A DNA stretch of 64,000 nt from Aestuariivivens sediminicola (GTDB lineage Bacteria; Bacteroidota; Bacteroidia; Flavobacteriales; Flavobacteriaceae). Made by a program: the position numbers and the translations under genes. Below are positions 17,263 through 52,507 of this stretch, one piece after another. Numbering within the stretch: position 1 is the stretch's first letter; every line of letters begins with the position of its first letter. Below the pieces are notes generated by a model. That model did not search any database, was not told the origin of the DNA, and saw only the letters and a list, made by a program, of their open reading frames with translations. Location of the stretch: contig NZ_JAKMCM010000005.1 of NCBI RefSeq assembly GCF_022662015.1, positions 1-64,000 on the forward strand. Reading direction: 5' to 3'.

Positions 17263-17406
17263 TTTACGCTAAGGGTAATGACTGGAGTTCAAACGGCCGG
17301 TATCCAATGGAGCTCTGGAACTTTTGCTAAATACGTGGGGTTTCATTCAATGCATTAAAATCACTAATTTGGGCCATATAATTCCAATTATGAACACATA
17401 TTTTTA

Positions 17407-19020
17407 ATGAATAAGGCGTTTAACAGAGGAGGCTTAATTCAGAAAATGCATAATACTTCCGAATGGGATGTTATTGTTATTGGTGGCGGAGCAACAGGCT
17501 TAGGAATAGCTTTAGACAGCATAACGCGTGGCTATAAGACCTTGCTTTTGGAGCGGGCCGATTTCGCTAAAGGAACATCCAGCCGAAGCACGAAACTTGT
17601 TCATGGGGGGGTTAGGTATTTAGCTCAGGGTAATATTAATTTGGTAAAAGAAGCTTTGTATGAAAGAGGACTAATGCTTAATAATGCATCACATTTAGTG
17701 AGTCGCCAATCCTTTATTATTCCAACCTACAAATGGTGGGATCATTTTATTTATACTGTTGGATTGAAAATTTATGATGTTCTCTCTGGTAAATTGAGTT
17801 TAGGAAAGTCATTTAGCATAAGAAAAACAGAAACTATAGAACGTCTTCAGACCCTTAGAACGATAAAGCTAAAGGGGGGAGTTGTCTATTACGACGGACT
17901 GTTTGATGACTCGAGGTTAGCAATAAATATGGCTCAGACCTGTATTGAAAAGGGGGCCGTTGTTTTGAATCATTTCAGGGTTATTGCACTATTAAAAGAT
18001 ACGGACGCCTCCATAACGGGAGTCCGGGCTGTGGATGAGGAAACGGGTAAAACTTACAAATTCGAGGCCAACGCTGTTATCAATGCCACAGGAGTCTTTA
18101 CGGACGACATTTTGAAAATGGATGACCCGACGGCACAAAACAAAATAAGGCCGAGTCAGGGCATCCATTTGGTTTTTGACAAATCTTTTTTACCGGGAAA
18201 GGATGCGATTATGGTTCCTAAAACAGATGATGGCAGGGTGCTGTTTCTGGTGCCCTGGCATAATAGGGTGGTTTTAGGAACAACGGATACACTTTTAGAT
18301 AGTCATAGTTTAGAACCTAAAGCTCGAGAAGAGGAGATAGATTTTATTATTAAAACAGCCAATCGATATTTAACTAAAAGCGTAACCAAAGGTGATGTCC
18401 TCAGCGTATTTGCCGGATTACGTCCCCTGGCTGCACCGAAAGACAAATCAGAGAAGACCAAAGAAATATCCAGAAGTCATAAAATTATAATTTCTAAATC
18501 GGGTTTGGTTACCATTACAGGCGGGAAGTGGACGACCTACAGGAAAATGGCAGAAGACACGATCAATAAAGTGATTGAACTGGGTAAATTGCCAAAGGCC
18601 CTCTGTAATACAAAGGGTTTGCATATTCATGGTGCCAATGGAACTTTAGATAAGTCAGATCATTTGTATATTTATGGAAGCGATTATAAAGAAATACACA
18701 AGCTGATAAAAAAACATCCTGATCTGGGGGAAAGGTTACATCCAAGATTGGAATTTTTAAAAGCAGAGGTCCTTTGGGCGGTTCGATTTGAAATGGCGAG
18801 GACAATCGAAGATGTTTTGGCCAGAAGGGTAAGAGTGCTCTTTTTGGATGCAAAAGCAGCCATTGAAATTGCCCCGGAGGTGGCAAGGATTTTAGCTAAT
18901 GAGTTAAATAAAGATGGCCAATGGGAAAAGCAACAAATTTCTGATTTTATTAAAGTTGCGAGAAATTACATAATTCAAACGCCGTCGCATATGGAGGATC
19001 GTCTTAATTTACCCAACTAA
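17407..19020 (+). CDS. glpD: Glycerol-3-phosphate dehydrogenase (FAD)
   Basis: This membrane-associated flavoenzyme oxidises sn-glycerol 3-phosphate to dihydroxyacetone phosphate and passes electrons to quinone. The FAD-binding motif is [17 protein letters not shown] (about residues 20-36). The substrate/FAD block [18 protein letters not shown] and the C-terminal DAO_C segment ([21 protein letters not shown]) are typical. The 537-residue length fits the family. ATG 17407 is used, although an internal Met (MHNTSEWDV, residue 15) could also serve. glpK follows after 14 bases and glpF after it, so this is the first gene of a glycerol operon. Confidence 0.95.
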
Positions 19021-36966: not shown

Positions 36967-37027
36967 GCTGTTTTTTCCACGCATCGTTTTCGCATTTACT
37001 CTTGTCTTGTAAATTTCTATAAAAATG

Positions 37028-37061
37028 AACACTGTGTGTCAATTTTTGATTGATGAGTGTT
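37028..37061. promoter_or_regulatory. Spaced inverted repeat before the PUL operon
   Basis: AACACT at 37028-37033 and AGTGTT at 37056-37061 are perfect inverted copies with centres 28 bases apart, in the 185-base gap between the HTCS and the first PUL structural gene. The gap is the natural place for the HTCS to bind. The six-base arms are short enough to arise by chance, so this is only a candidate site. Confidence 0.25.
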
Positions 37062-37151
37062 ACGCCATGTTTCAGTCCGCATTTAATTTTAGGTGTTAAG
37101 GAGCAGTCATGCTTTCCTGACGAAATTAACTTAACAACTAAACTAAATATT

Positions 37152-38282
37152 ATGAAGCGAAGTTTACTTGACTTTTTTAAAAAGGTATGCCTTATAATGG
37201 CGCTATTTTTAGTCCATTCATGTGATGAAGGTGCAACCGTTGAAGGACCAAGGGAAAAAGAATTTTTGTCGAGGGTCTCGGCTGAAAGAGCTGTGGTGAA
37301 CGATGACATTACGTTTACCGATTTATCTTTAGGAGCGGTAAGCCGCAGCTGGGTATTCGAAGGAGGTGATCCACTGAGTTCCTCCAGCCCTGAGGTTATT
37401 GTAAGTTTCCCTGAGGCCGGTATGAAAAACTGTTCTTTAACCGTGACCTTCTCGGATGGTTCAGAGGAAACCCAAAACTTCAGTATTGAAATTTTACCTG
37501 AACTTGTGGCCAGCTTTACGTATGCTGAAACCGGAGCGAACATTCCAATACAATTTACAGATACCAGTGAAGGCGATCCTGATGGGTGGTCTTGGGTATT
37601 TCCGGGAGGATCACCGGCTACATCTACCGAAAGGAATCCGGTTGTAACATGGCCATCAGAGCGTGAAATCACCGTTTCTCTTACGGTCTCTCGATCTTTT
37701 GATGACATTACCACCTCCTATGCGATTCCCGTTTCCATTGGTCCGCCTAATCTATGGACATCAGAAGCCCAGGGCTTCGAGAATCCCGATTCCCCATTTT
37801 GGTGGCAAACCTGGTTGGGAGGCGGAGGCTGGCCTGCAGGGAGCCTGACAACGGTTGCCGGAGGCGCCAATGACACTGAGAATACAGCGCGGGTAGCTTA
37901 TCCCGGAGGCAGTACCTGGAATATGATTACGCGAGATACACGGGCGCATAACGCCGTAATTTATAAAGGTAAAACCTATAAGATCAGTTTTTATATAAAG
38001 GCTCAAACAGCAACTTCCATTGCTTTCGTTCGATTTTCCAATCAGATTCCGTCGTGGTGGCCTGACGCCTGGAAAAACGGGGATCCCGATCAGGGCTTTT
38101 ACTCCCAGGGTATTTATGGAATAAACGTGACAACGGATTGGCAGTACCATGAAGCACAGTTTACCTTAAACGACCTGCCATACGATGTGGGATTGAATAC
38201 GTTCCCGGATATCGAATTAAGCGGACCTGTGTCTCCAAATGTCATTTTTATAGACGAAGTCAGATTACAGCAACTAGACTAA
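37152..38282 (+). CDS. PKD-domain lipoprotein with C-terminal carbohydrate-binding-like module
   Basis: ATG 37152 begins a lipoprotein leader with lipobox LVHSC. Two PKD domains follow (about residues 40-125 and 126-200), marked by FTDLSLGAVSRSWVFEGGDP and FTDTSEGDPDGWSWVFPGG. The C-terminal 170 residues resemble a beta-sandwich CBM of the CBM4/9 type (GFENPDSPFWWQTW, YKGKTYKISFYIKAQTAT, IFIDEVRLQQ), with many exposed-type Trp residues. It is most likely a surface glycan-binding protein, taking the place of SusE/F. It precedes susC by 24 bases in one operon. Confidence 0.8.
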   Translation: MKRSLLDFFKKVCLIMALFLVHSCDEGATVEGPREKEFLSRVSAERAVVNDDITFTDLSLGAVSRSWVFEGGDPLSSSSPEVIVSFPEAGMKNCSLTVTFSDGSEETQNFSIEILPELVASFTYAETGANIPIQFTDTSEGDPDGWSWVFPGGSPATSTERNPVVTWPSEREITVSLTVSRSFDDITTSYAIPVSIGPPNLWTSEAQGFENPDSPFWWQTWLGGGGWPAGSLTTVAGGANDTENTARVAYPGGSTWNMITRDTRAHNAVIYKGKTYKISFYIKAQTATSIAFVRFSNQIPSWWPDAWKNGDPDQGFYSQGIYGINVTTDWQYHEAQFTLNDLPYDVGLNTFPDIELSGPVSPNVIFIDEVRLQQLD

Positions 38283-38306
38283 ATAAACCAACTTAAAATA
38301 GATTAT

Positions 38307-41300
38307 ATGAAAAATTTAAAGAAAAAACTCTTTTTCTTGAGTTTTATAATGTTCACCATACAGTTATCTGCACAGGAAGTGTCAATATCAGGTAGCGTTG
38401 TAGATGCCGAAAGCCAGACACCGTTAATAGGAGCCAATGTTCTTATTGAAGGAACAAATAAAGGGACGGTTACAGATTTTGACGGGAAGTATACGATCAA
38501 AGCCAAGGTTGGTGATGTTCTGATAGTTACCTATTTGGGATATGAAGCATCCAGAATTACCGTAGGCAATAGTACCACCATAAATATGCAACTGATGCCA
38601 TCGAGCGATACCTTAAATGAGATCGTCGTCATTGGTTATGGTACGTCTACCAGAAAGGATTTGTCCGGATCCGTGGCATCCATTAAACCTGAATCTTTTG
38701 AAGAACGTCCGATTACGACAATAGAAGATGCCTTGCAAGGAAATGCCACGGGACTCCTCATTCAAAGTAGCAGTGGACAACCTGGTGCTGCAGCAAATAT
38801 GAATATCCGAGGAATATCATCGCTCACTGGAAATACCCAACCGCTAATCGTTATAGATGGGTTTCCAATTTTTGAAGTCACTACCAGTGGAGGAGGCGGA
38901 CTCGAACAGTTTAGCGGTCAGATTAGTCCGTTCTCGTTTATCAACCCGAACGACATCGCATCGGTAGAAGTTTTAAAAGATGCCTCTGCGACCGCTATTT
39001 ATGGAAACAGAGGGGCCAATGGGGTCATCCTAATTACTACTAAAAAAGGAAAAATGGGTGCTCCGAAAGTCAACTATACCTCCTATTACGGTGTACGCGA
39101 TGTGCAGGGATCCTATGATGTCATGAATCTCTCCCAATATATTCAATATCAGCAGGAACAGAATCCGAATAACCAACTCTATACCAATTTAGAGGATGGT
39201 ACAGCTTATCAGTTTGATGAGAATATGAGGTCCAGAAACTGGCAGGACGAAATCTACAAAACAGGGGTCGTTCAAAGCCATTCTATTTCTGTTCAGGGAG
39301 GTAACGATAATACGAGATACCTGCTTTCCGGTTCGTATCTTGACGACGAATCCATTATCATTGAAACCGATTTTGAAAAATATGACCTTAAACTCAGTTT
39401 AGACCAGAAACTGCGTGACAATTTAAAAGTTGGCACTTCCCTGAGCTATAACTATATCTCCAACAACGGGGTGCCAACCGACGGTAGGGAAGGTACGGCA
39501 TTTGGTGCCGTTATGGGAGCGTTTATTGCCTCACCCTTACGTTTGGATGAGGATACCCAGGCCTATTTCAGAAGGGCAGGTGTGCAACAGGTGCTGTTGG
39601 ATGATTTTGTCAACAATTATTTAGGTGATCCCGAAAATTTGGCCAAAAACACACAGCTAAATAAAAACCTCAGCAGGTTTATAGCGAATGGCTTTATGGA
39701 ATGGGATATTACCGAAAAACTTAATTTAAGGGTAAGTGGCGGTGTGGATATGTTTAACGGGAAGGATCAACAGTATTATCCTAAGAATACCCCATCGGGA
39801 TTCCTGGTCTTTGGTCGCGCCATTGTGGCTTCCTTTCTCAACAGGAGCTGGATAAACGAAAACATTTTTACATATAAAAATCAGTTTGGTGACGACCATA
39901 GGTTGGATTTGGTTGCAGGAGCAACCATTCAGGACAGTCACTTTGAATTCCTGAGGACTGAGAATGTCACCTTCGCCAACGAACTTCTTGGCTATAATCA
40001 GCTGGCCGCTGCCGCAGATTTCAGAAATATTTCCGACGTTACCGATTTAAAATTAATAGGCTTTTTATTGCGTGCCAATTATACCTTCAAAGACAAACTG
40101 ATTCTAACGGTAAGCGGGCGTCGTGATGGAACCTCACGTTTTAAAACGAACAAATGGGGAAATTTTTATTCAGGGGCCATAGCCTATAATTTGTCTGAAG
40201 AAGACTTTATGAAAAATATCGAAGACATTTCATTGCTTAAGTTAAGAGCCAGTATAGGCGAAACAGGTAATGCCAATGTATCAACGCTGGGGGCCTTCTC
40301 TCAATTGCGCAATACAAACTACAACTTTAATGACAGCGAAGTGCCGGGGCAATCGCCGGCGAATCTGGCTAATGAAGATTTATCCTGGGAAACAACCCAA
40401 CAGATTAATGCCGGTATTGATGTGAGCCTATTCAAGGATAGAGTTGCACTTACAGCCGATTATTATATCAAAAAGACTAAGGATTTGATTCTGCAAACAC
40501 CAATACCAAATGTTACAGGATTTGATTTTGCCTTCCAGAACATTGGAGAATTGCAGAATTCGGGGCTTGAAGTTTCATTGAATACGGTGAACGTTAAGAC
40601 TTCAAATTTTGAATGGAAAACCAATTTTAACATCACTTATGGTACCAGTGAGATCAAAGATTTAGGACAGGGCGGGCAGCCCATTTATGTCGATCCTAAT
40701 TTTGACAATGTGATTAAAGATGAGGTTATTCTAGAAGAAGGAGGTGAAATAGGAGCCTTATTTGGATACATTCAGGAAGGGCTTTATCAGCCAGAAGATT
40801 TTGATTCCTCTGGAGATCTAATAGTCGCGGGTCGTGGTGTTGGAGAGCAGGCAGGCGATATTAAATTTCGAGATGTCAATGGAGATGGGATTGTTAATGC
40901 CGACGATAGGGTGGTGATCGGAAATACCTTGCCTGATTATTTTGGCGGGCTTAACAATACATTCAGTTATAAGGGTATAGATTTAAGCATTCTTCTTCAA
41001 TATTCGATTGGGAATGATGTTTTTCATGCCACAAGAACAAGAACCGAGCGCTTTATAGGAGGGGGTAGCAACCAGTCTACCAAATACCTTGATCGGTGGA
41101 CGCCTGAAAACCCGAACAGCACACAATATGCGCGGTTTAACTCCCTGGTCTCGGCCTCCACATTTGTAGAAGACGGCTCTTTTTTGAGGATTCGAAACAT
41201 TAGACTGGGGTACAATTTTCCTGCTTCTGTTACGGATAAAATAGGTCTTAACAGTTTGAGATGTTACGTATCTGCCGATAATTTAAAAGTATTTACGAAA

Positions 41301-41435
41301 TATACAGGCTACGATCCTGAGGTAAGCACCAATCAGGGTGATGGCAGCAGAAGTTCGGTCCTGTCGAGTGGATTTGACTATGGTGCATTTCCGAGATCTC
41401 GAACCATAACCTTTGGTTTAAACCTTGATTTTTAA
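38307..41435 (+). CDS. susC: SusC-like TonB-dependent outer-membrane transporter
   Basis: The transporter imports oligosaccharides across the outer membrane with SusD as lid. After the signal peptide comes a CarboxypepD_reg-like domain (about residues 25-95, VSISGSVVDAESQTPLIGAN). The plug domain with IVVIGYGTSTRKDLSGSV and NMNIRGISS follows, then the SusC-specific segment VEVLKDASATAIYGNRGANG (about 215-240) and a 22-strand barrel ending in RTITFGLNLDF with terminal Phe. At 1042 residues it is complete. The symbol is used in the generic family sense. susD follows after 18 bases. Confidence 0.97.
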   Translation: MKNLKKKLFFLSFIMFTIQLSAQEVSISGSVVDAESQTPLIGANVLIEGTNKGTVTDFDGKYTIKAKVGDVLIVTYLGYEASRITVGNSTTINMQLMPSSDTLNEIVVIGYGTSTRKDLSGSVASIKPESFEERPITTIEDALQGNATGLLIQSSSGQPGAAANMNIRGISSLTGNTQPLIVIDGFPIFEVTTSGGGGLEQFSGQISPFSFINPNDIASVEVLKDASATAIYGNRGANGVILITTKKGKMGAPKVNYTSYYGVRDVQGSYDVMNLSQYIQYQQEQNPNNQLYTNLEDGTAYQFDENMRSRNWQDEIYKTGVVQSHSISVQGGNDNTRYLLSGSYLDDESIIIETDFEKYDLKLSLDQKLRDNLKVGTSLSYNYISNNGVPTDGREGTAFGAVMGAFIASPLRLDEDTQAYFRRAGVQQVLLDDFVNNYLGDPENLAKNTQLNKNLSRFIANGFMEWDITEKLNLRVSGGVDMFNGKDQQYYPKNTPSGFLVFGRAIVASFLNRSWINENIFTYKNQFGDDHRLDLVAGATIQDSHFEFLRTENVTFANELLGYNQLAAAADFRNISDVTDLKLIGFLLRANYTFKDKLILTVSGRRDGTSRFKTNKWGNFYSGAIAYNLSEEDFMKNIEDISLLKLRASIGETGNANVSTLGAFSQLRNTNYNFNDSEVPGQSPANLANEDLSWETTQQINAGIDVSLFKDRVALTADYYIKKTKDLILQTPIPNVTGFDFAFQNIGELQNSGLEVSLNTVNVKTSNFEWKTNFNITYGTSEIKDLGQGGQPIYVDPNFDNVIKDEVILEEGGEIGALFGYIQEGLYQPEDFDSSGDLIVAGRGVGEQAGDIKFRDVNGDGIVNADDRVVIGNTLPDYFGGLNNTFSYKGIDLSILLQYSIGNDVFHATRTRTERFIGGGSNQSTKYLDRWTPENPNSTQYARFNSLVSASTFVEDGSFLRIRNIRLGYNFPASVTDKIGLNSLRCYVSADNLKVFTKYTGYDPEVSTNQGDGSRSSVLSSGFDYGAFPRSRTITFGLNLDF

Positions 41436-41453
41436 ATTAAAAAATTCTAAAAA

Positions 41454-43001
41454 ATGAAAAAAGCTTTATTTATAGCAGTACTGATGATTTTTTCTTGTGA
41501 TTCTGCTCTCGATGTCGAAATTAAAAACAATATTTCAACATCTAATTTCTTTCAATCTCAGGTAGATTTCGATCTGGCCCTAACCGGCGCATACGACATA
41601 TTAGGTAACCATCAGGATGATTCCGGTTTTGGGACCTATTTCCGGGGCTTGCTTTGTATGGGACGTGCAGGAACCGATGAGGGTTATATAGTGGCATCAT
41701 TTGCACAATATGGTGTTGAACTCTCAAATTATACCTTTACACCGGTATCCCAGGTTCCGGATAGAGTGTGGGCATTCCAGTATAAAGGCATATCTCGTGC
41801 TAATACCGTGATTACCAGATTGGAACGCGCCGGGGATATTGATATGCCTCAGGCGGAACGAAATCGTATCGAGGGTGAAGCACGGTTTTTAAGGGCCTTT
41901 TATTATTTCCAACTCGTAAGGTATTATGGAGGGGTTCCTCTGGTAACGGAAGAAGTAACCGATATTTCACAAGTTAATTTTGAAAGAGCGTCCATAGCTG
42001 ACGTGTATGCTCAGATCATAGAAGATCTTCAGGCGGCCGAACAATTATTACCAATCAGCAATGAAAATGGAAGGGCTGAACGTTATGCAGCTACGGCCTT
42101 TCTCGCCAAGGCTTATCTTCAAATGTCCGGATTTCCACTTCAAGATGACACTGCGGCCGCGCTTGCTGCTCAAAAGGCCAAAGAGGTGATGGACAGTGGC
42201 CTTTACGCGCTTTTACCAAATTATGAAGATGTGTTTAAATTGGAAAATGAATATACCAGTGAATATATTTTTAGTGTACAGTTTGCCTTTTGCGGCAATT
42301 GTGAAGGAGGTCAGGTGGGCACCTGGGATGGTATTCCGGGGAATTGGGCCTTTGCGCGTACCTATAATATATTCAGGACCTTTAATGAGCATTATGATGC
42401 TTACGATCCGAACGACTTAAGGCGGGATTATAATATTGTTGATTACAGGATTATAGATGCCGATGGAAATACGACACCTACCAACGATGGGAATAAGTAT
42501 GCGTTTAAATGGCGACATGCACCAAACCCTGAGGACAGACCCGGTGGCACAGGCTGGTTTGAATGGCAGAGCTCTTTCGATTTCCCATTAACGCGTTACG
42601 CCGACATCCTACTTACCTACGCCGAAGCCATTAACAGAAGTAATGGTGCTCCTAACGCAGAAGCATATGAGGCCATTAACAGGTTACGAAGAAGAGGCTT
42701 TGGTGTGGATATGACTATGCCCAGTGCGGTAGCCGATTTACCAACCGGCCTCTCTTTCAATGAATTTCAGGACGCTGTATTGGACGAAAGAAAATTTGAG
42801 CTTTGCTATGAAGGTCACAGATGGCACGATCTGGTGCGATTCGGGAAATTGATTGATGCGGTGAAGAGCATTAATTCACCAGAATCTCTGGAGCGATCGC
42901 CGGCTGCAAATAACATTCAGCCACATCATGTGTTCTTCCCCATTCCGCAATCGCAAATACAGATTAGTGATGGGGTGTTAATCCAAAATGAAGGGTATTA
43001 A
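41454..43001 (+). CDS. susD: SusD-like surface glycan-binding lipoprotein
   Basis: The SusD/RagB partner of the preceding transporter is anchored through lipobox FSC (Cys15). Diagnostic segments are NFFQSQVDFDLALTGAYDIL near the N-terminus, RIEGEARFLRAFYYFQLVRY, FPLTRYADILLTYAEAINRS and LDERKFELCYEGHRWHDLVR near the C-terminus, typical of its TPR-containing fold. At 515 residues it is full length. The stop overlaps an upstream extension of the GH27 frame but not its likely start at 43030. Its divergent binding loops set which glycan is taken up and cannot be read from sequence. Confidence 0.97.
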   Translation: MKKALFIAVLMIFSCDSALDVEIKNNISTSNFFQSQVDFDLALTGAYDILGNHQDDSGFGTYFRGLLCMGRAGTDEGYIVASFAQYGVELSNYTFTPVSQVPDRVWAFQYKGISRANTVITRLERAGDIDMPQAERNRIEGEARFLRAFYYFQLVRYYGGVPLVTEEVTDISQVNFERASIADVYAQIIEDLQAAEQLLPISNENGRAERYAATAFLAKAYLQMSGFPLQDDTAAALAAQKAKEVMDSGLYALLPNYEDVFKLENEYTSEYIFSVQFAFCGNCEGGQVGTWDGIPGNWAFARTYNIFRTFNEHYDAYDPNDLRRDYNIVDYRIIDADGNTTPTNDGNKYAFKWRHAPNPEDRPGGTGWFEWQSSFDFPLTRYADILLTYAEAINRSNGAPNAEAYEAINRLRRRGFGVDMTMPSAVADLPTGLSFNEFQDAVLDERKFELCYEGHRWHDLVRFGKLIDAVKSINSPESLERSPAANNIQPHHVFFPIPQSQIQISDGVLIQNEGY

Positions 43002-43029
43002 TTTAAGTTTTAAACAGAATTCGATACTA

Positions 43030-44211
43030 ATGATGAAATATAGTTTTGCACTGGTGATCACCTTGTGCATGGGTCTGGGACATGCCCAGAAATTTGATGG
43101 TTTGGCCCAGACACCCCCAATGGGATGGAACAGCTGGAATAAATTTAATTGTGATGTTAGCGAAAAACTCATAAAGGAAATTGCTGATGCCATGGTGGCT
43201 TCTGGTATGAAAGATGCCGGATATCAATACATTGTCATTGATGACTGCTGGCAAATTGACAGAGATGGAAACGGCAAGATTGTTGCGGATCCGGAGCGCT
43301 TTCCCTCCGGGATCAAAGCGCTTGTGGATTATGTGCATGGGAAAGGATTGAAGTTTGGTATTTATTCCTGTGCAGGCACAAAAACATGTCAGGAACGGCC
43401 GGGAAGTCATGGCATGGAACGCATTGATGCGAAAACCTATGCAGAATGGGGCGTGGATTATCTGAAGTACGACTGGTGTTTTACTGAGGGGATTGAACCC
43501 ATTGCAGCCTATACTGCCATGAGTGAGGCGATAAAGGAAGCCGGACGACCGATGATATTCAGTATCTGCGAGTGGGGGTTGAGCAAGCCCTGGACCTGGG
43601 CAAGAGATGTTGGTCATTTATGGCGCACAACCTACGACATCAGAGACTGGTATGATGGTGAAATCAATGGTAACTTTTTAGGATGGAGTATCATACTGGA
43701 CAAACAGGTGGGTCTTGAGAAATATTCCGGGCCGGGACATTGGAATGACCCGGACATGCTGGAGGTAGGCAATGGAAGGCAGACCAATACAGAATATAAA
43801 GCCCATTTTAGTTTTTGGGCGCTTTTAAATGCACCGCTCATTGCGGGAAACGATTTAAGAAATATGGATGCGAATACCATTGAAATATTAACCAACACAG
43901 AAGTTATTGCTATTAATCAGGACAAATTAGGGCAACAAGGCTATAAAATTTTTGATTATGGCGACAGCGAGGTTTGGTGTAAAAATTTATATAACGGAGA
44001 CTATTGCATCATTTTATTTAATCGCGCCTCAAGCCGACAGCAAGTTGCCGTTCAGTGGGAGATGATAGCTCCAGAATTGGCTGCCGACAGTTTTGCACTA
44101 AGGGATCTGTGGAAGCATGAAGATCTAGGTGATTTTAAATACGGGTTCAATGCTGAAATTCCATCCCACGGAGCTAAAATGATACGCCTGAAGAAAAGGT
44201 ATAAACACTGA
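43030..44211 (+). CDS. GH27 alpha-galactosidase family enzyme
   Basis: ATG 43030 (or the next codon, 43033) begins a signal peptide ending at LGHAQ. The mature enzyme opens with the GH27 hallmark LAQTPPMGWNSWNKFNCDVS. It contains YIVIDDCWQ and the nucleophile Asp at about residue 148 in DYLKYDWC; a later Asp in DIRDWYDGE is the likely acid/base. The C-terminal beta-sandwich ends AKMIRLKKRY. GH27 members remove terminal alpha-galactose, alpha-N-acetylgalactosamine or beta-L-arabinopyranose. It follows susD by 28 bases and is part of the PUL operon, acting in the periplasm on imported oligosaccharides. Confidence 0.93.
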   Translation: MMKYSFALVITLCMGLGHAQKFDGLAQTPPMGWNSWNKFNCDVSEKLIKEIADAMVASGMKDAGYQYIVIDDCWQIDRDGNGKIVADPERFPSGIKALVDYVHGKGLKFGIYSCAGTKTCQERPGSHGMERIDAKTYAEWGVDYLKYDWCFTEGIEPIAAYTAMSEAIKEAGRPMIFSICEWGLSKPWTWARDVGHLWRTTYDIRDWYDGEINGNFLGWSIILDKQVGLEKYSGPGHWNDPDMLEVGNGRQTNTEYKAHFSFWALLNAPLIAGNDLRNMDANTIEILTNTEVIAINQDKLGQQGYKIFDYGDSEVWCKNLYNGDYCIILFNRASSRQQVAVQWEMIAPELAADSFALRDLWKHEDLGDFKYGFNAEIPSHGAKMIRLKKRYKH

Positions 44212-44390
44212 ACCGATAGGTCCAATCAAAAGGGCTGTAAATGATTATAAAGAATGACGTTTCATGTTGGTGTTATTGTGTTTGAAGGACGTTGTGAAAA
44301 CCATACGAATGACCAAGTGGGATACGATGGATGTAATTACAATATGAAATGGATAGATTAAACATAACGGACCTAATTATAAAATGACTT

Positions 44391-46619
44391 ATGATCCCGT
44401 CTTTCGCATATGAAATAAAATTAAAATACCCTAAGGGCCTGATATTTATTGCTTTCATGGTTTTGACTACCATGAGATTATCCGGTCAATGTTGGTCTTT
44501 TTCACTTGATGACAACCCGTCGACCATAAGTCAGTCGATGTTTCCGGGTGCCATAGGCGGCTATTTCCCGGATGCTGGCATTAGTGTTTTGGAGATTGAT
44601 TCGAACTATTATGCATTTTGGGCCATGTTCGAAAATTACAGGAGCATTGCCAGTTCGCCGTTGCTGCAGAATCACGTGGGACAACTGGATCCGGCAACGG
44701 CAGTATTTGGTGGACGAGAACCGAATAACGGCACTTCGAACGGGTTTAATGATGGCGGTATGTGGTTCATTGGTGTGAGAAAACTCGATGACGGGCGACT
44801 TGCAGGGTTTTTCCATGCAGAATCCCACTGGTACCCGCGCAGCACCTATGGAGGCACGGCATATAAATCGATTGGAGTGGCCTATTCGGAAGACAACGGT
44901 TTGACGTGGGGAACACCGGAATTAATTTTGAAACATTTCTACGATAAACCTGCCACACCAGATTGGTCCGGATTGGGTGATGGATGCGTTATTTACAATC
45001 ACCTGAAGAACAGATATTATTGTTACTATACGCCTGTATTTGGGAGTGTCAATCTGAGTATGGCCATATCTGAGGACCCTGCCGGTGCGCCGGGGACATG
45101 GATGAAATGGTACAACGGTTCTTTCTCCCAGCCTGGAATCGGGGGTTTTCACTCGCCTATCGATGGGTTGTCAGGTCGACCTGGAGCCAATCCATCAGTG
45201 CATTGGAATACCTATCTCGAAAAATTTATCATTGTTTTTCACGGCTGGAATGAAAAACTCTATATATCTGCAAGTGAAGACGGTGAGGTTTGGGAGGAAC
45301 CCCAGCTGCTGCTGGACGAAGGTTCAAAAACCTGGTACCCCGTTGTAGTCGGCACCAATAGTTCTGAGGGTGGGCAGACGGTTACCTTATATTATGGAAA
45401 CAATTTTCAGTCGGATGGGAGACGAACCTTGTCCTATCGAACCCTGACTTTTAATAAGGGACTTTTGGAGACAACCGATCAATTGTTGGCAGATGGACGA
45501 TACGCTATAAGGAATATGTCCAATAATAGGAATCTGGCCGCGACGAGCGCCAGTGGTTTTGACGGCGTACTAGTGTCCCCGGACAGCTTCGAGGATCAAC
45601 GATGGGATGTCACCCATTTAGGGAATAATGAATACAGGATAACGCATGCCTGTTGCGGAGGCAGATTGGCTGTGGAAAATTCCAATTGTACTTCGGGGAG
45701 CCTGGTTCTCAGCGAAACTGCAGACGACTCCAGAGATAGTCAGATTTGGAAGGTAGAGCAACTCACAAACGGGAATTTTGTGCTTAGACCAAAACATTGT
45801 CAAACTCAGGCCCTGGCAAGAGCGGATGCATCCTCAGATGATGTGGTCACCTTAAATTACAATGTATGTAATGAACTGCAGGCATGGTCTTTTTTGGCTG
45901 AAAACTTTGCCTTACCGGTTACCAATTTTAAAATACAAGGTGTGAGCGAAACATGCAGAAATAGGAATGACGGCAGCATCAGTATATCTGCTGTGCGTTT
46001 TTTAAACTATACAGCTGTAATTACGGGCAATGGGTATAATAGCACCGATACGTTTACCATGTCCCTTACAAAAGCAGGCCTAAGTGCCGGCGACTATAGA
46101 ATATGTATTAGTGTTCAAGATCAACCCGGTTTTGGGCAGTGTTTCAATGTCACCATTAACCAACCCGAAGAGCTATCTGTTTTATCTAAAGTAAATAAGG
46201 ACAAGGGTGTTGTTTCTTTAAATATGAATGGCAGCGATACCTACAAAGTGAATCTTAATGGGGTGTCAACTGAAACTAAAAATCCTTTTATAGAGTTGCA
46301 GTTAAAAGCCGGAGAAAACAAGATTACTGTTGAAACAGATAAAAATTGTCAGGGGAAATATGAGGAAACGATTTTCTACGGCAGGGAATTGTTCTTGTTC
46401 CCAAATCCCGTTGCAGATCATGTGTCCCTATTCTTTGGTGAATCGGATAATAACACAGTCTCTGTTAAAATAGTGTCGCTATTGGGGAATGAGGTGTATA
46501 GCCAGATAACCCGAAAGCCCGTGTTAACTGTTGATACCTCCGGACTGACCAATGGGATGTATGTAATACAAGTTGCATCTGAAACATATACTAAAAGTTT
46601 AAAAATTATAAAACAGTAA
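44391..46619 (+). CDS. T9SS-exported propeller protein with ricin-like domain, putative glycosidase
   Basis: The 742-residue product has three parts after an export signal (about residues 1-33). Residues 34-345 look like a five-bladed beta-propeller as in GH43/GH117-type enzymes, with GVAYSEDNGLTWGTPEL, GLGDGCVIYNHLKNRYYCYY and LYISASEDGEVWEEPQLLL. Residues about 360-500 form a RICIN beta-trefoil (RNLAATSASG, GRLAVENSNC, QIWKVEQL). The last 75 residues (LFLFPNPVADHV... to SLKIIKQ) are a type A T9SS sorting domain, so it is a cell-surface or released protein. No catalytic residues can be assigned with certainty. It starts 180 bases after the GH27 gene. Confidence 0.8.
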   Translation: MIPSFAYEIKLKYPKGLIFIAFMVLTTMRLSGQCWSFSLDDNPSTISQSMFPGAIGGYFPDAGISVLEIDSNYYAFWAMFENYRSIASSPLLQNHVGQLDPATAVFGGREPNNGTSNGFNDGGMWFIGVRKLDDGRLAGFFHAESHWYPRSTYGGTAYKSIGVAYSEDNGLTWGTPELILKHFYDKPATPDWSGLGDGCVIYNHLKNRYYCYYTPVFGSVNLSMAISEDPAGAPGTWMKWYNGSFSQPGIGGFHSPIDGLSGRPGANPSVHWNTYLEKFIIVFHGWNEKLYISASEDGEVWEEPQLLLDEGSKTWYPVVVGTNSSEGGQTVTLYYGNNFQSDGRRTLSYRTLTFNKGLLETTDQLLADGRYAIRNMSNNRNLAATSASGFDGVLVSPDSFEDQRWDVTHLGNNEYRITHACCGGRLAVENSNCTSGSLVLSETADDSRDSQIWKVEQLTNGNFVLRPKHCQTQALARADASSDDVVTLNYNVCNELQAWSFLAENFALPVTNFKIQGVSETCRNRNDGSISISAVRFLNYTAVITGNGYNSTDTFTMSLTKAGLSAGDYRICISVQDQPGFGQCFNVTINQPEELSVLSKVNKDKGVVSLNMNGSDTYKVNLNGVSTETKNPFIELQLKAGENKITVETDKNCQGKYEETIFYGRELFLFPNPVADHVSLFFGESDNNTVSVKIVSLLGNEVYSQITRKPVLTVDTSGLTNGMYVIQVASETYTKSLKIIKQ

Positions 46620-47335
46620 TGAAGCGATTTTTTATATACATAACAGTTAGTTTATTCTATTGTATGCTCGTATTCAATTGCAGTAGTGGTGGTGGTGACG
46701 ATGCCGTCGATCCTGATCCGAAGATCGAGACCCCTCCTGTGGCGGCAAATCTTATTTTTCCTAGTAATAATTCGGAATGTACTGAAGGGGCTGATGTATC
46801 AAGTACAGAAACTGAAGTGACCTTTGATTGGTATAACGCCAACAACACGGATTCATATCAATTATTTATAAAGAATTTAACGACCCAATCTACTGTAAAT
46901 TACAATACGACTGAATCTGAGAAGCGCGTCACTCTTTTAAAAGGGACGCCTTATTCATGGTATGTCGTTTCAAAAAATGTGACCTCACAAACGGCCCAGA
47001 GCAGTGTGTGGAAGTTTTATAACGCAGGTGAGGCCCAATCGTCCTACGCACCCTTTCCGGCGGAACTTTTGGAGCCGGGGTTATACAGTGAGTTAAGCGC
47101 ATCTACAACAAGTACCCTGCTGGACTGGACAGCGGAAGATGTGGATAACGATATAAAAGAATACGACGTGTATTTTGACACCGTCGGTTCACCTGATAAC
47201 AAGATAACCACAACAAGCGATTCAAGCTTTACAGTAACCGTTAGCTCAGGAAACACCTATTATTGGAGAATAATTACTAGAGACGAGCAAAACAATAGTT
47301 CGGAATCTCAGGTGTTCGAGTTTAGCGTGAAATAA
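46619..47335 (+). CDS. Lipoprotein with FN3-like repeats
   Basis: The start overlaps the preceding stop (TAATG), so translation is probably coupled to the propeller gene. The leader has lipobox LVFNC followed by SSGGGDDAVDPDP, a linker rich in Gly/Asp typical of surface-exposed lipoproteins. Two beta-sandwich repeats follow (about residues 45-135 and 140-238), with TEVTFDWYNANNTDSYQLF, PYSWYVVSKN, TLLDWTAEDVDNDIKEYDVY and TYYWRIITRD, the pattern of fibronectin type III-like domains. It is probably a surface glycan-binding or anchoring partner of the PUL; it has no enzymatic motif. A terminator follows. Confidence 0.8.
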   Translation: MKRFFIYITVSLFYCMLVFNCSSGGGDDAVDPDPKIETPPVAANLIFPSNNSECTEGADVSSTETEVTFDWYNANNTDSYQLFIKNLTTQSTVNYNTTESEKRVTLLKGTPYSWYVVSKNVTSQTAQSSVWKFYNAGEAQSSYAPFPAELLEPGLYSELSASTTSTLLDWTAEDVDNDIKEYDVYFDTVGSPDNKITTTSDSSFTVTVSSGNTYYWRIITRDEQNNSSESQVFEFSVK

Positions 47336-47452
47336 AGTGGAACGATGGAAGGTGGCCTTGTTGCAGGCAGATTAAAGATGAAAATTATATATTAAAAATT
47401 TTGATTAAGTAGTTAGTTTTAGTTTTTACCTCAATGTTTGAGTTAGTTATGA

Positions 47453-47484
47453 AAAGGGAAGGCTGAAAAACCTTCCCTTTTTTG
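47453..47484 (+). terminator. Rho-independent terminator within the PUL
   Basis: AAGGGAAGG pairs with CCTTCCCTT around an eight-base loop and is followed by a T-run. It separates the 37-47 kb operon from the GH28-like gene, which therefore needs its own promoter in 47485-47562. Confidence 0.85.
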
Positions 47485-47562
47485 AACTCAAAACGCTGCT
47501 TTTTTGATTAAATTGAAATTATTGAAACGCACTTTTTTAGAAGTCGTTTTACAAAAAGTTAA

Positions 47563-49062
47563 GTGATGAGCACTAGGAAAATTTTTGTAATGGCCGTAAC
47601 CTGTTTAATTCTATCAGGTATATATGTCCTAAGAACTGTTTACAATAGGACCCAAGGCCAAAGAACAACAGAAAATATGACGCGGTTAATTTCCTCGAAT
47701 TCCGGGTTAACCATTTATCCCGCGCCCTCAGATGAGGACCTTTCAAAAGATTATCGGTTGGAGGTTAATGGGAAGGCTGTGGACATCTATCTGGCCCAGA
47801 TTGCTGCTATTGAAAACCGTCCACCATGGACCTTGGACCCGAAAGATGTTGGAGGGCCCTACTCGTTCAGTTATTTCGATTTTTCTGGCAGTGTAACCAT
47901 AAAGGTCTCTGCTTTAAACACATCTTTTGATCAGGTAGTCATTCGTCCTTTGTCTGCCGGAATTAAACCTGTTATAGAAGGGAATACGCTGACCTTCAGT
48001 ATTGACCGGCCCTGTAAACTTTCTATAGAACCCAACGGCAGGCGGGAACCCCTTTTGATTTTTGCTAACCCTCTCGAGATAGATCCTCCAAAAATAGATG
48101 ATCCCGATGTGATATATTATGGCCCCGGTATTCATAAGCCCGAAAAAATAATACTCAAAACAGGCCAGACGCTTTATATCGCAGGAGGTGCTGTCGTCAA
48201 GAGCGGTGTTGCTGTGTCAGGGAAAAACATCAAGATAAAGGGAAGGGGAATCTTATGTGGGAATGACTGGGAGTGGAAAAAGGGGCCAGGCAATATGATT
48301 GGTATAAGGGATGCTGAAAATGTTTCCATTGAAGGGATTATTCTCAGGGGGTCGTGGAGCTGGACCATTCCTATGTACAATAGTAAAGGCGTTAACATTA
48401 CCAATGTTAAAATGGTATGCAGTAAAAACCCGAATGACGATGGGATTAATCCCTGTAACTCACAGGACGTTTATATCGGCGACTGTTTTATACGTACGGA
48501 TGATGACTGTATTGCCATGAAGGGCATTACACTGGGTTCGGCCAATGACAATGTTGAAAACATAGTTGTTGAAAACTGTATTCTCTGGAGTGACAGGGCG
48601 CGTGTTTTCCTCCTTGGCCATGAAAGCCGTGCTCCTTATATGAGGCACATCACGCTATCCGATTTAGAGATCATACATTTTAATATGAGCCCGTTTCTTT
48701 TTGAACCCGGAGAGGAGATGTCCATAGAGAATGTAAGGGTTGAAAATGTCAGGCTCTATGCTGATTATCCAAAGCAGAATGGAGAACGTACCTTCGAATG
48801 GATTCGTTTAAAACCAACGGTTAATCAGTACATGAAAAGGCAGGTGCCCGGCAGAATGCGTAACCTGTACTTTAAAAATTTGGCTCTGACCGGTGAAGCA
48901 AGAGAAGGTTGGTATTACATTTGGATTACGGGTGCAGATGAAGCACATCAGGTCACCGATGTGACCTTAGAGAATATCACCTGGTTTGGTGAAAGATTGG
49001 ATGAAAATTCATTACAAGTAAAGATAGGGGATTTTACAAATGGGGTTAAATTCAGGCGTTGA
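47563..49062 (+). CDS. GH28-like right-handed beta-helix glycosidase
   Basis: The 499-residue product has an N-terminal membrane/signal segment (FVMAVTCLILSGIYVL) and a beta-sandwich prodomain (about residues 50-175). A right-handed beta-helix follows with GH28 signatures: NPNDDGINPCNSQDV (Asp pair near 291), IRTDDDCIAMKG (near 311) and LGHES (His near 352). GH28 enzymes hydrolyse galacturonans and related polymers by inversion; the prodomain is also like GH49 dextranases. The target may thus be a uronate- or galactose-based chain. It is followed after 101 bases by an esterase gene. Confidence 0.8.
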   Translation: MMSTRKIFVMAVTCLILSGIYVLRTVYNRTQGQRTTENMTRLISSNSGLTIYPAPSDEDLSKDYRLEVNGKAVDIYLAQIAAIENRPPWTLDPKDVGGPYSFSYFDFSGSVTIKVSALNTSFDQVVIRPLSAGIKPVIEGNTLTFSIDRPCKLSIEPNGRREPLLIFANPLEIDPPKIDDPDVIYYGPGIHKPEKIILKTGQTLYIAGGAVVKSGVAVSGKNIKIKGRGILCGNDWEWKKGPGNMIGIRDAENVSIEGIILRGSWSWTIPMYNSKGVNITNVKMVCSKNPNDDGINPCNSQDVYIGDCFIRTDDDCIAMKGITLGSANDNVENIVVENCILWSDRARVFLLGHESRAPYMRHITLSDLEIIHFNMSPFLFEPGEEMSIENVRVENVRLYADYPKQNGERTFEWIRLKPTVNQYMKRQVPGRMRNLYFKNLALTGEAREGWYYIWITGADEAHQVTDVTLENITWFGERLDENSLQVKIGDFTNGVKFRR

Positions 49063-49163: not shown

Positions 49164-50090
49164 ATGTTGGTGTTGCAAAATCGCTATATGTTGATTTTGA
49201 TGTCTCTCATGGTATCCTGGGCATCAGGTCAGAACATGGAAAAAGAAAGGTTTAAGCTCTACTTTCTGGGTGGTCAGTCCAATATGGAAGGGCATGGACT
49301 TAACACTGAATTACCGGATTCCCTCAGCATGACCAATGATCAGGTCTGGATTTATCATGGTGTTCCAATGGAAGATGAAAATCCTGATGGCGGATTGGGG
49401 AGATGGGAAAAACTCAAACCGGGCAACGGTGCGGGATTCAAATCGGATGGTATCAACAACAGGCATTCTCATAAGTTTGGAATTGAGTTGTCCTTTGCTA
49501 AAAAACTACAGACGTTGTATCCGGATGAGAAAATAGCTTTGATAAAATACGCCAGAGGAGGATCGTCTATTGACAGTCTTGCAGCACGTAACTTTGGATC
49601 CTGGGAAATGGACTATCGCGGCAACGGCGGCTTAAATCAATTTGACCATTTCCTTAGGACGTTAGTCGATGCTTTTAAAATAAAGGATATTAACGGTAAC
49701 GGGATCGAAGATATCTTGATGCCAAGTGGTATTATTTGGATGCAGGGCGAAAGTGATACAGTACTTACGGAAGCCATTGCACTTCGGTATTATGCCAACC
49801 TCAAAAGACTAATGGATTTGATTCGTTCTGCCTTCCGAGACGATGATATTCCAGTGGTTATCGGGAAAATTTCCGATTCGGGGATGGATAACAGAGGGAA
49901 AACATGGACGTATGGAGAATTAGTTCAGCATGCTCAGGAAACATTTGTGAGAAGGGATAAGAATGCCGCTATTGTTAGAGAGACTAAGGGCTACTCCTAT
50001 TCCGATCCCTGGCATTACAACAGCGAGGGATACATTGATCTGGGTATAAAATTCGCGGAAGCCGTTTATAAACTTAATAGCAGCAAATAA
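49164..50090 (+). CDS. SGNH/SASA-type acetylesterase (CE6-like)
   Basis: The enzyme shows the SASA hallmarks: FLGGQSNMEGHG with the nucleophile Ser at about residue 39, IIWMQGESDT (oxyanion/second block) and the Asp-x-x-His pair DPWHY near 281-284, together a complete Ser-His-Asp triad. A hydrophobic leader (MLILMSLMVSWASGQ, from the internal Met at residue 9) directs export. Members remove O-acetyl groups from xylan, pectin-like or sialic acid substrates. Its neighbours, a GH28-like enzyme upstream and the convergent GH105 gene 2 bases downstream, suggest it deacetylates the PUL substrate. Confidence 0.85.
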   Translation: MLVLQNRYMLILMSLMVSWASGQNMEKERFKLYFLGGQSNMEGHGLNTELPDSLSMTNDQVWIYHGVPMEDENPDGGLGRWEKLKPGNGAGFKSDGINNRHSHKFGIELSFAKKLQTLYPDEKIALIKYARGGSSIDSLAARNFGSWEMDYRGNGGLNQFDHFLRTLVDAFKIKDINGNGIEDILMPSGIIWMQGESDTVLTEAIALRYYANLKRLMDLIRSAFRDDDIPVVIGKISDSGMDNRGKTWTYGELVQHAQETFVRRDKNAAIVRETKGYSYSDPWHYNSEGYIDLGIKFAEAVYKLNSSK

Positions 50091-50092
50091 TC

Positions 50093-52507
50093 TCAAGCAT
50101 TCGGTTTATCTAAAATAATGCCTTTAACATCGGCATCGTAATCGGTATAGTCATGCCATGGCCCGTTGAGCCATAAGAGTACTTTATAGCCTTCATCGGC
50201 TACAATAATGGGGCGAATGTTACGGTAGTTTGAATTGGAGGTTACCGCTTTCCATTCAATGCTGCTGATGTCATCATCGATTCCAACAAGTGCTTCGTAT
50301 ATTTCATGAACACCTCCCAAATCGGCTCCTGTTGAGGGGTCGACGTCGGTAGAAATATAAACCTTTTCAGGATCTTCCGGGTCGAAAGCCAGAAGCCCAG
50401 TATAGCTGCTTTCTACTTTATACAGGCATTTACCCGCATAGGCAATCTCTCGATCGTGCCAGCTTTGCCCATCCCATGACGCCATTCTGAACCTGTGGTC
50501 AGCATCGTTCAGGTACACCGAATAACCCATGTGCGGATGGTTGTTCTGGTCAGTGGCCATGGCACAGGTCCAGGCACTCCGGGGGACACTCTCCGTAAAA
50601 ATGGATTTGACATCGGTATCACTCCCGGCAAATATTTTTTCCCCTTCCGAAGTCCTGAGAGGGCCTTCAGCCAAATGTTTGATTTCAGTCCCGTCTGCAG
50701 TGTAAAAAGTGCCGTTTGTAAACTGTGCATAGTAGAGGTTATTACCATAGCGGCGCGGGTGTCCGTCGGTATAGGAAATGCCGACCGTATTCGGGTCTAT
50801 TTGATAGTATCGTGGGTAGGGACGCTGATACCCTTCAATATCATTGGCAATAAAATGGCTGCGATTGCCCCAGGTCTCACCGTGATCGTCTGAAGTGATG
50901 AAAAAGGGATTAAAGGTCGATCCGTCGCGATAAAAATTATAGAGCCGATCTTCATTTTCCATATGATATAAATTCATGTAGGTCACGCCATTCTCATGAT
51001 CGTAAACATGTTCATAGCTTTTTACATCGCCCCAAAGCAAATAATTATCCGGATCTGAAATAGTATAATAATGCGTCTTTTCTGAACCGTGCTTGGCCCA
51101 AACTGCTAAAACACCACCATCAGGGCGTTTATACAGGGCGGGCACATTATGATCGTCGGTTTGAAGTTCCTTATGCAGTACAAGGGTGCTGTCTAAGCTT
51201 GCCGATTTTAAATCGTAGATCCCAAGACGAACATCACCGCTTTGTCCGCTTAAACCACCAATGAGTAATTTCCCATGGCTAATAAGTGCTCTCGGGTCCT
51301 GGTACCAGCACCATCCGCCGTCCTTCATAAAGGTAGCATGCTGTTCGTCTCTCGGCAACGGATAAAACCGATTGAGATAGGTATACAGTTCTGAACCTGC
51401 CGCCAGAAATGCCCCAATACCATAAACTTCGGTATAGTCTTTAAAACTTTCTCCAGGAGCCGCACCAATAGGTTGCACATAACCCAGCATGCCATCTTCA
51501 TTAACGCAATTTTTCAGGCTGTGCCATGCCTTGAATACTACGGGTTCGTAAGTTTCCCTGTCTAAAAGCCCGCTATTGATGCCCCAGGCCATGCCAAACG
51601 TAAAGAATGAGGAGCCGCTGGTCTCAATGGTGGGGTAGTCATTCGGATCGCCTAAAAGACCACCGGACCAGGTACCGTCTGCTCTCTGAACCGCTTTAAG
51701 CCGCTCTGCCATCTGAACAAAAAGCGTTTCATAAAAGGCCCTGCCTTCCCAATCTTCCGGTAAATCCGGAATCATAAGGGCCAAACCAGCGAATACCCAA
51801 CCGTTACCGCGTGACCAAAAGACCTTGCTGCCATTTTTCTCTCTGGAATCGAAAAACGATTTGTCTCTGTAAAATAAATGCTCTTCAGGATCCCACAGTT
51901 CGTTGTAGGTCATTTTATATTGCGAATCCATATACTGTAAATAGGTACTGTCTTTGGTAACCTTTGCTAATCTGGCCCAAACCGGTGGAGACATGAAGAG
52001 GGCATCACACCAGTCCCATAGGTATTTTTGGCCTTCTTCACTCGTCATGATGGAATCGAAGCGTTGTTTGGTGGGCACGATGGAGGCTATTTTTTTTAAT
52101 CGGATATTTTGATTCAGACTCAAATAGAGTTGCCCCACGGCATGATCGTCGGCGTGGTACATGCGTCGATGCAGGTTCCACTCATTTCTATCGCCTATGC
52201 TGACCAACCAATTGATGTATTTTGGATAAGTGGAGACCTTGGTCAATTCGAACATTCCAGCGTACAGGGCGGCGTTTGTCCAGTCCAAATCATGGTGCTT
52301 CGTCCTGTTATCCCAGGCTCTTTTGGTTGATGGCAGGGCCCTGTACTTACCCTGGTCTTCAAAAGTTTCTATCTGCCAGTTGGCCACTTTCTCTGTAAGC
52401 TGTAAGACCTCTTTTTGATTTGGAATATCAGTTCCCATCGAGGTATCCTGCTGTTTACAGGCATGACACAAAAGGAAAATAAAGCATATTGTTAAAATTG
52501 ATCGCAT
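50093..52507 (-). CDS. GH105 unsaturated uronyl hydrolase fused to BNR_4 propeller (ulvan-lyase-like)
   Basis: The 804-residue lipoprotein (lipobox CHAC) joins two enzymes. Residues about 25-385 are a GH105 (alpha/alpha)6 barrel: YHADDHAVGQLYL, catalytic Asp in WDWCDALFMSPPVWARL (near 166), FWSRGNGWVFAGL and ETSGSSFFTFGMAWGIN. GH105 removes the unsaturated uronate left by lyases. Residues about 395-795 are a BNR_4 seven-bladed propeller (YQDPRALISHGKLLIGGLSG). It carries His453 in DDHNVPAL and His473 in WAKHG, with Tyr510 and Arg527 downstream, a spacing I recall from PL24/PL25 ulvan lyases. The chain could thus cleave and then trim the polymer. It is convergent with the PUL operon and probably co-regulated. 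Confidence 0.85.
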   Translation of the reverse strand: MRSILTICFIFLLCHACKQQDTSMGTDIPNQKEVLQLTEKVANWQIETFEDQGKYRALPSTKRAWDNRTKHHDLDWTNAALYAGMFELTKVSTYPKYINWLVSIGDRNEWNLHRRMYHADDHAVGQLYLSLNQNIRLKKIASIVPTKQRFDSIMTSEEGQKYLWDWCDALFMSPPVWARLAKVTKDSTYLQYMDSQYKMTYNELWDPEEHLFYRDKSFFDSREKNGSKVFWSRGNGWVFAGLALMIPDLPEDWEGRAFYETLFVQMAERLKAVQRADGTWSGGLLGDPNDYPTIETSGSSFFTFGMAWGINSGLLDRETYEPVVFKAWHSLKNCVNEDGMLGYVQPIGAAPGESFKDYTEVYGIGAFLAAGSELYTYLNRFYPLPRDEQHATFMKDGGWCWYQDPRALISHGKLLIGGLSGQSGDVRLGIYDLKSASLDSTLVLHKELQTDDHNVPALYKRPDGGVLAVWAKHGSEKTHYYTISDPDNYLLWGDVKSYEHVYDHENGVTYMNLYHMENEDRLYNFYRDGSTFNPFFITSDDHGETWGNRSHFIANDIEGYQRPYPRYYQIDPNTVGISYTDGHPRRYGNNLYYAQFTNGTFYTADGTEIKHLAEGPLRTSEGEKIFAGSDTDVKSIFTESVPRSAWTCAMATDQNNHPHMGYSVYLNDADHRFRMASWDGQSWHDREIAYAGKCLYKVESSYTGLLAFDPEDPEKVYISTDVDPSTGADLGGVHEIYEALVGIDDDISSIEWKAVTSNSNYRNIRPIIVADEGYKVLLWLNGPWHDYTDYDADVKGIILDKPNA

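Follow-up and report, generated by a model that had tools for sequence, protein, structure and literature searches.

Can a single polypeptide both cut a uronate polymer and remove the unsaturated residue that the cut would leave behind? This question is raised by a gene of the flavobacterium Aestuariivivens sediminicola, located in a 64,000-nt stretch of contig NZ_JAKMCM010000005.1 (positions 1 to 64,000; the window), whose product joins a GH105 hydrolase barrel to a BNR_4-type propeller (Table 1). A first-pass annotation of the window had noted a His pair, a Tyr and an Arg in the propeller reminiscent of the PL24/PL25 ulvan lyases, and had suggested a self-contained lyase and trimmer of an uncommon kind. 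Because GH105 is fused here to a propeller with the fold of PL24, PL25 and PL42 and with the same catalytic residues, this protein is best read as a lyase and trimmer combined in one chain. The propeller is likely a uronate lyase of its own family within the PL24/PL25/PL42 fold clan, with its product trimmed in cis by GH105.

The propeller shares the fold and candidate catalytic residues of uronate lyases

Both halves of the proposed architecture are confirmed by Pfam. The Glyco_hydro_88 model (GH88/GH105) matches residues 39-377 with 233.6 bits, and BNR_4 (PF15892) matches residues 423-689 with 93.8 bits against a curated cut-off of 27.3. AlphaFold models the full chain as a helical domain followed by an all-beta domain (mean predicted local distance difference test score, pLDDT, 87.6; predicted template modelling score, pTM, 0.83), and the propeller alone with a mean pLDDT of 92.3. 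When the propeller model is compared with the Protein Data Bank (PDB) by Foldseek, the first 16 rows are all clan members (E 2e-15 to 5e-11): 5mum, 5mvh, 5muk and 5mul (GH145, now PL42), 7esk and 7esl (PL42), 5uas and 5uam (PL25), 6byx, 6byp and 7drq (PL24) and the homologue 4irt. Propeller lectins and sialidases follow from row 17 on, and on this ranking we rejected the idea that the BNR domain is a sialidase or a lectin. An NCBIfam assignment to beta-galactosidase BglB was also rejected (66.6 bits versus a cut-off of 420).

Within the propeller, His453 (DDHNVPAL), His473 (WAKHG), Tyr510 and Arg527 lie exactly at the positions given in the annotation. Conservation was counted over 117 aligned propeller rows, a few of which are overlapping retrievals from a single gene (e.g. 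L110/L124), and the four residues are retained in 115-117 of them. His453 is replaced by Leu in one row and by a gap in another, His473 by Arg in one and by Tyr in one. Most exceptions stem from a single row, L021, a paralogue that lacks His453, His473 and Arg527 and retains the GH105 Asp residues; an intact copy lies ~14 kb away on the same contig. Identity reaches at least 97% at 22 of the 420 propeller positions, 18 of which align with PL25. Ten of these 18 family-invariant positions are identical in PL25, versus 67 of 365 aligned positions overall (hypergeometric P 3e-4).

Profile-profile alignment places these residues on the active sites of known lyases. Our 117-row profile aligns by hhalign with a 4irt/PL42-like profile (probability 99.1), a PL25 profile (98.9) and a PL24 profile (89.6). 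The PL25 and PL24 relatives used are L121 (472 bits to 5uam) and L155 (229 bits), respectively; the PL42-like profile comprises 4irt and L129-L149 without L136, and its only row compared with the PDB, L147, scores best against 4irt (148 bits) and BT3686 (143 bits). His453, His473, Tyr510, Arg527 and Tyr564 fall on identical residues in all three. Against PL25, these and His583 correspond to H123/H143/Y188/R204/Y246 and H264, as also seen with a 22-row profile. Residue roles in known lyases are taken from the excerpted text of PMC8377490, PMC12915356 and PMC11395424, the last of which gives H123, Y188, R204 and H264 as the key residues of PL25. The window propeller thus carries this PL25 set, the PL24 set His146/His167/Tyr243/Arg259 and, via the 4irt/PL42-like profile, the His/His/Tyr/Arg set of the PL42 anterior lyase site. 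Tyr243 of the PL24 lyase LOR_107 shares a column with PL25 Tyr188 in the sequence alignment; the structural comparison in the same excerpts of PMC8377490 equates it with FoRham1 Tyr202. Excerpts of PMC8406133 report that lyase activity of BT3686 requires H90 and Y143, and the same distance of 53 separates the corresponding His-Tyr pair of 4irt and that of L129.

As controls we aligned two other propellers of the window, unrelated to this one; as single sequences, which are weaker than profiles, they gave hhalign probabilities of 0.1 and 0.2. They nonetheless matched two of the four positions by letter in one case (Y510, R527) and one in the other (H453), so it is the four residues together that count. 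A chance spacing of the residues is rejected by their conservation in the 117 rows, the PL25 enrichment and the profile alignments; the resemblance to PL24/PL25 noted in the annotation is thereby borne out, with all four residues on published catalytic positions.

The GH105 partner also appears equipped for catalysis. Foldseek identifies a GH88/GH105 barrel, with 4ce7, 4q88 and 5noa in ranks 1-6 and 4ce7 chains in ranks 1-3. Two Asp residues are intact in the window domain: Asp120, a candidate active-site residue by comparison with UGL and YteR, and Asp168, which alignments to 4ce7 and 1nc5 place in the column of YteR Asp143.

In the mechanism that we infer from these alignments, covering the chemistry, the role of each residue and the sequential action of both domains on one chain, the propeller would be a beta-eliminating uronate lyase of its own family in the PL24/PL25/PL42 fold clan. 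His453, Tyr510 and Arg527, aided by His473, Tyr564 and His583, would neutralise the carboxylate, abstract the proton at C5 and donate a proton to the leaving oxygen. Elimination would leave a 4,5-unsaturated uronate on the new non-reducing end, which the GH105 barrel of the same chain would then remove. Excerpts of PMC8406133 describe such a succession in Bacteroides plebeius, where rhamnose is split off by the GH145-family lyase BACPLE_00338, whose unsaturated product then serves as substrate for BACPLE_00337, a GH105.

Fusion to GH105 recurs in both domain orders

We next examined how widely this pairing occurs. Relatives were sampled at the level of the family (matches in 15 of 249 genomes) and of the phylum (18 of 395), and among GTDB contigs we used the best 80 of at least 513 confirmed stretches, a choice that favours close relatives. 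In these best 80 loci, GH105 precedes the propeller in 21, follows it in one and is a separate open reading frame (ORF) of the locus in six, so that it is fused or nearby in 28; L051, which has a weak GH105 fragment, was counted as lacking it. In other genomes, the reversed order is found in L010, L015/L022, L019, L021, L023, L025, L108 and L111. The existence of both domain orders implies at least two origins of the fusion. A quick tree of 116 rows, in which many forks are unresolved and from which one short row was left out, requires 11 changes among the states fused-first, fused-last and neither, counting gains as well as losses. The window genome has three GH88/GH105 matches in 3.65 Mb, for which chance proximity within ~16 kb would be ~1%. 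This recurrent pairing is the strongest support for a two-step reaction that is independent of the lyase alignments.

The propeller family itself is found in Bacteroidota, Pseudomonadota, Verrucomicrobiota, Kiritimatiellota, Planctomycetota, Acidobacteriota and others. The rarity supposed in the annotation holds within the family, where 7 of 249 genomes carry the fusion with GH105 first, but not beyond it, as several phyla contain fusions and either order is seen. A literature search, which did not extend to CAZy, found no description of a GH105-BNR_4 fusion.

Further architectures were seen among these relatives. Two Pontiellaceae proteins (L043:5700-9236 and L047:5511-9242) have two consecutive GH105 domains ahead of the propeller, and two Alteromonadaceae proteins read DUF4861-GH105-BNR_4. 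In marine Gammaproteobacteria, DUF4861 stands ahead of GH105 with or without BNR_4 (L057:5970-9215, L068:5991-9212, L061:5983-7995); L063 instead has an SASA-like N-terminal part (40.5 bits). Five records from large plasmids (H1-H5), four of them haloarchaeal, contain BNR_4 relatives with 25-28% identity over 96-99% of the query.

By direct sequence match the propeller falls outside PL24, PL25 and PL42

Several observations weigh against the lyase-trimmer reading. The Foldseek TM-scores of rows 1-16 are moderate (0.58-0.68 by query length, root-mean-square deviation 5-9 A), so this result is a fold match and not an active-site superposition. A single-sequence search at E 10 returned no PL24, PL25 or PL42 chain, and neither did a 20-row profile among its 51 matches at E 1; most of these were antibody chains, and 4irt (E 1e-9) was the only known clan member. 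By direct sequence match the propeller thus belongs to none of the three families, which were reached solely by profile-profile alignment and fold. No GH105 is present in 52 of the best 80 GTDB loci, 25 of them with full flanks, and in the reversed fusion L019 a Tyr replaces His473. We also know of no assayed member of the propeller family.

The PL42 sugar-binding site gives a further contrary indication. According to excerpts of PMC8377490, FoRham1 holds the -1 rhamnose with Tyr26, Asn275, Gln276 and Arg331. The corresponding N278, Q279 and R342 of L129 are conserved in the PL42-like profile, with R342 at Tyr +190 like R333 of BT3686. In the window family, we found no conserved counterpart of N275, Q276 and R331, in a region where the alignment is weak. 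Given this and the missing direct matches, we rejected filing the propeller under PL24, PL25 or PL42 and place its family outside them. It probably works like them.

The described enzymes resemble the window protein to different degrees. Members of PL42, formerly GH145 (FoRham1, BT3686, BACPLE_00338 and BACCELL_00856), share the propeller fold, the anterior His/His/Tyr/Arg site and BNR_4, as far as covered by excerpts of PMC8377490, and in B. plebeius the GH105 partner BACPLE_00337 has the adjacent locus number (PMC8406133, excerpts). There, however, lyase and GH105 are separate proteins rather than one chain, and the rhamnose-site Arg (the counterpart of BT3686 R333) and Asn-Gln pair lack a conserved equivalent in the window family. 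The PL25 ulvan lyase PLSV_3936 (5uam/5uas) is identical at H123, H143, Y188, R204, Y246 and H264 in aligned columns, but is a single-domain chain with 18% identity over 365 columns in the profile-profile alignment. The PL24 ulvan lyases LOR_107 and Uly1 match at H146/H167/Y243/R259 but are the farthest of the three and have no His in the His583 column. NuGH105 (4ce7), an unsaturated 3S-rhamnoglycuronyl hydrolase, is the closest solved GH105 but a single-domain protein. Finally, P36 of Formosa agariphila (GH78 plus S1_25 sulfatase) combines two steps of ulvan breakdown in one protein (PMC8511951, excerpts), but with other domains and other reactions.

Substrate candidates and alternative activities

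If the propeller is a lyase, which polymer does it act on? One tentative but credible form of the lyase-trimmer reading is a uronate polymer in which a sugar other than rhamnose precedes the uronate, such as a hexosamine, as for the reversed fusions, or a pectin-type chain. The absence of a conserved PL42-like Arg and Asn-Gln is consistent with it, as are the contexts of the reversed fusions. In L158:440-19653 (G248), two tandem BNR_4-GH105 fusions share a strand with NAGLU, two GH20, GH31, MGH1-like hydrolase, glucosamine-6-phosphate (GlcN-6-P) isomerase/PIG-L and MFS genes, which looks like a hexosamine-uronate degradation cluster. In L159:6801-18502 (G119), a reversed fusion adjoins SusC, SusD and PL8 lyase genes, and 17348-18502 encodes a separate, unfused GH105. 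These contexts suggest hexosamine-uronate chains for that clade; because the window propeller is just 27-29% identical to the reversed-fusion propellers, they may not carry over to the window protein. A scan of 43 neighbours in gammaproteobacterial and planctomycete loci shows one pectic acid lyase, one tagaturonate epimerase and four GH43 genes. The window clade itself, however, shows mixed contexts; neighbours in L031, L033 and L036, for instance, include GH2 enzymes, a sulfatase and a GH95.

An ulvan lyase proper, cleaving rhamnose 3-sulfate (Rha3S)-alpha-1,4-glucuronic or iduronic acid with GH105 trimming the unsaturated residue from Rha3S, is an unlikely form of the same reading. Among solved structures, the ulvan enzyme 4ce7 comes closest to the window GH105 (258 bits and 44% identity over 318 columns, versus 165 bits for 5noa and 54 for YteR), and the GH105 of one reversed fusion gives the same ranking (244, 132 and 60 bits); a tree of 51 GH105 rows, however, fails to separate the 4ce7 and 5noa groupings. 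Of the 14 flavobacterial-type loci L026-L039, six (L030-L034 and L036) have a sulfatase-like ORF at a distance of at most 8 kb. The one compared is nearest 6hhm (204 bits), presumably an ulvan enzyme, followed by an iduronate-2-sulfatase (172 bits). Sulfatase matches number 41 in the 3.65-Mb host genome, 40 of them above cut-off, and point to a user of sulfated polysaccharides; eight of the 41 lie at G000:C17:260991-298645. Against ulvan, GH27, GH28-like and SASA genes occur in the polysaccharide utilization locus (PUL) of the window, and upstream genes in the orthologous loci L026 and L030 encode an NTP transferase and DUF389, with a convergent sulfatase also in L030. No PL24 or PL25 relative was found in the host genome, in a search that had no positive control and is therefore weak. 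According to excerpts of PMC8377490 and PMC8406133, the catalytic residues are shared by PL42 exo-lyases whose substrates are gum arabic or wine arabinogalactan protein. Gene contexts vary from locus to locus. The annotation's lyase and trimmer thus stands as the best reading on fold, residues and intact GH105 Asp, whereas its ulvan part does not follow, given these PL42 enzymes, the non-conserved PL42 rhamnose site, the varied contexts and the lack of a direct PL24/PL25/PL42 match. The substrate evidence is mixed and favours no polymer for the window protein.

Two other readings deny the propeller a lyase role. It could be an oligosaccharide dehydratase that removes water from a terminal saturated uronate, supplying GH105 without cutting the chain, which would account for the tight coupling to GH105. 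Excerpts of PMC8511951 describe P29_PDnc, earlier reported as a lyase, as feeding GH105 in ulvan breakdown in this way. The propeller enzymes described with this anterior site, in the excerpts cited above, are lyases. P29_PDnc, moreover, presumably has a different fold, and we consider a dehydratase very unlikely. Least probable of all is a non-catalytic binding module beside an active GH105: propeller lectins do share the fold, but the four residues are almost invariant, and the sole row lacking three of them, L021, has its intact paralogue nearby.

Gene neighbourhood and features of the protein

The fusion protein is a probable lipoprotein, judging from its N-terminus. Cys17 follows a hydrophobic stretch and a loose lipobox pattern fits 15 of 19 orthologues, in line with the annotation, but the window protein's own motif is non-canonical.

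A PUL and an SASA-type esterase gene lie beside the fusion gene (Table 1). The SusD-to-SASA part of this PUL also adjoins the orthologue in L038. Because the PUL is convergent with the fusion gene, and the setting is common to L038 alone among the loci examined, it is weak evidence on substrate, and we dropped substrate inference from it. PDB searches with its ricin-lectin and GH28-like neighbours indicated no specific substrate. At 44391-46619, the window encodes a 742-aa protein with a ricin-type lectin stretch and a Por sorting tail, whose first ~360 residues have no match in Pfam or the PDB at E 0.001. Directly upstream of the regulator, an 880-aa protein (30121-32763) has a cytochrome c near its C-terminus as its only Pfam match at E 0.001.

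Table 1. Positions in the window of the fusion gene, its domains and candidate catalytic residues, and neighbouring genes
Feature	Coordinates	Strand	Basis
Whole gene, 804 aa, probable lipoprotein, GH105 + BNR_4 propeller	50093..52507	(-)	ORF, Pfam, AlphaFold
Signal peptide to Cys17, probable lipoprotein signal	52457..52507	(-)	Sequence; lipobox-like motif in orthologues
GH105/GH88 domain, residues 39-377	51377..52393	(-)	Pfam, best solved relative 4ce7, Foldseek
Lyase-like propeller, residues 385-804	50096..51355	(-)	AlphaFold model, Foldseek
Asp120, candidate GH105 active-site Asp	52148..52150	(-)	Asp in 51/52 GH105 domains
Asp168, column of YteR Asp143 via 4ce7 and 1nc5	52004..52006	(-)	52/52 domains
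His453 = PL25 His123 = PL24 His146	51149..51151	(-)	Profile alignment; 115/117 rows
His473 = PL25 His143 = PL24 His167	51089..51091	(-)	Profile alignment; 115/117 rows
Tyr510 = PL25 Tyr188 = PL24 Tyr243	50978..50980	(-)	Profile alignment; 117/117 rows
Arg527 = PL25 Arg204 = PL24 Arg259	50927..50929	(-)	Profile alignment; 116/117 rows
Tyr564 = PL25 Tyr246; also Tyr in PL24, 4irt	50816..50818	(-)	116/117 rows
His583 = PL25 His264 (key there); non-His in PL24, 4irt	50759..50761	(-)	116/117 rows
Convergent neighbour, SASA-type carbohydrate esterase	49164..50090	(+)	Pfam 99.9 bits
Neighbouring PUL: hybrid two-component system (HTCS) regulator, PKD protein, SusC, SusD, GH27	32854..49062	(+)	Pfam
Same PUL, further genes: ricin-lectin protein, fn3 protein, GH28-like	32854..49062	(+)	Pfam

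Implications

The chemistry and the fold discussed here are known; the additions are an apparently unassayed family and a recurrent fusion, in both orders and several phyla, of which the papers searched gave no description. A more speculative extension, which we hold to be somewhat unlikely, is that these proteins are two-stroke exo-depolymerases of alternating uronate chains, a new lyase family fused repeatedly, in both orders, to GH105 in cis. The propeller would eliminate the terminal sugar, GH105 would remove the unsaturated uronate, and the cycle would repeat until monosaccharides result, with different clades serving different chains, including hexosamine-uronate ones.

For the uronate lyase trimmed in cis, the fusion in both orders predicts a two-step reaction within one protein, and GH105, which only uses what a lyase (or dehydratase) makes, would be its built-in reporter. 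The apparently unassayed lyase-like family extends across many phyla, and its candidate catalytic residues can now be named. Its substrate, once identified, would enlarge the toolbox for uronate polymers and may reveal how one fold changes its -1 sugar.

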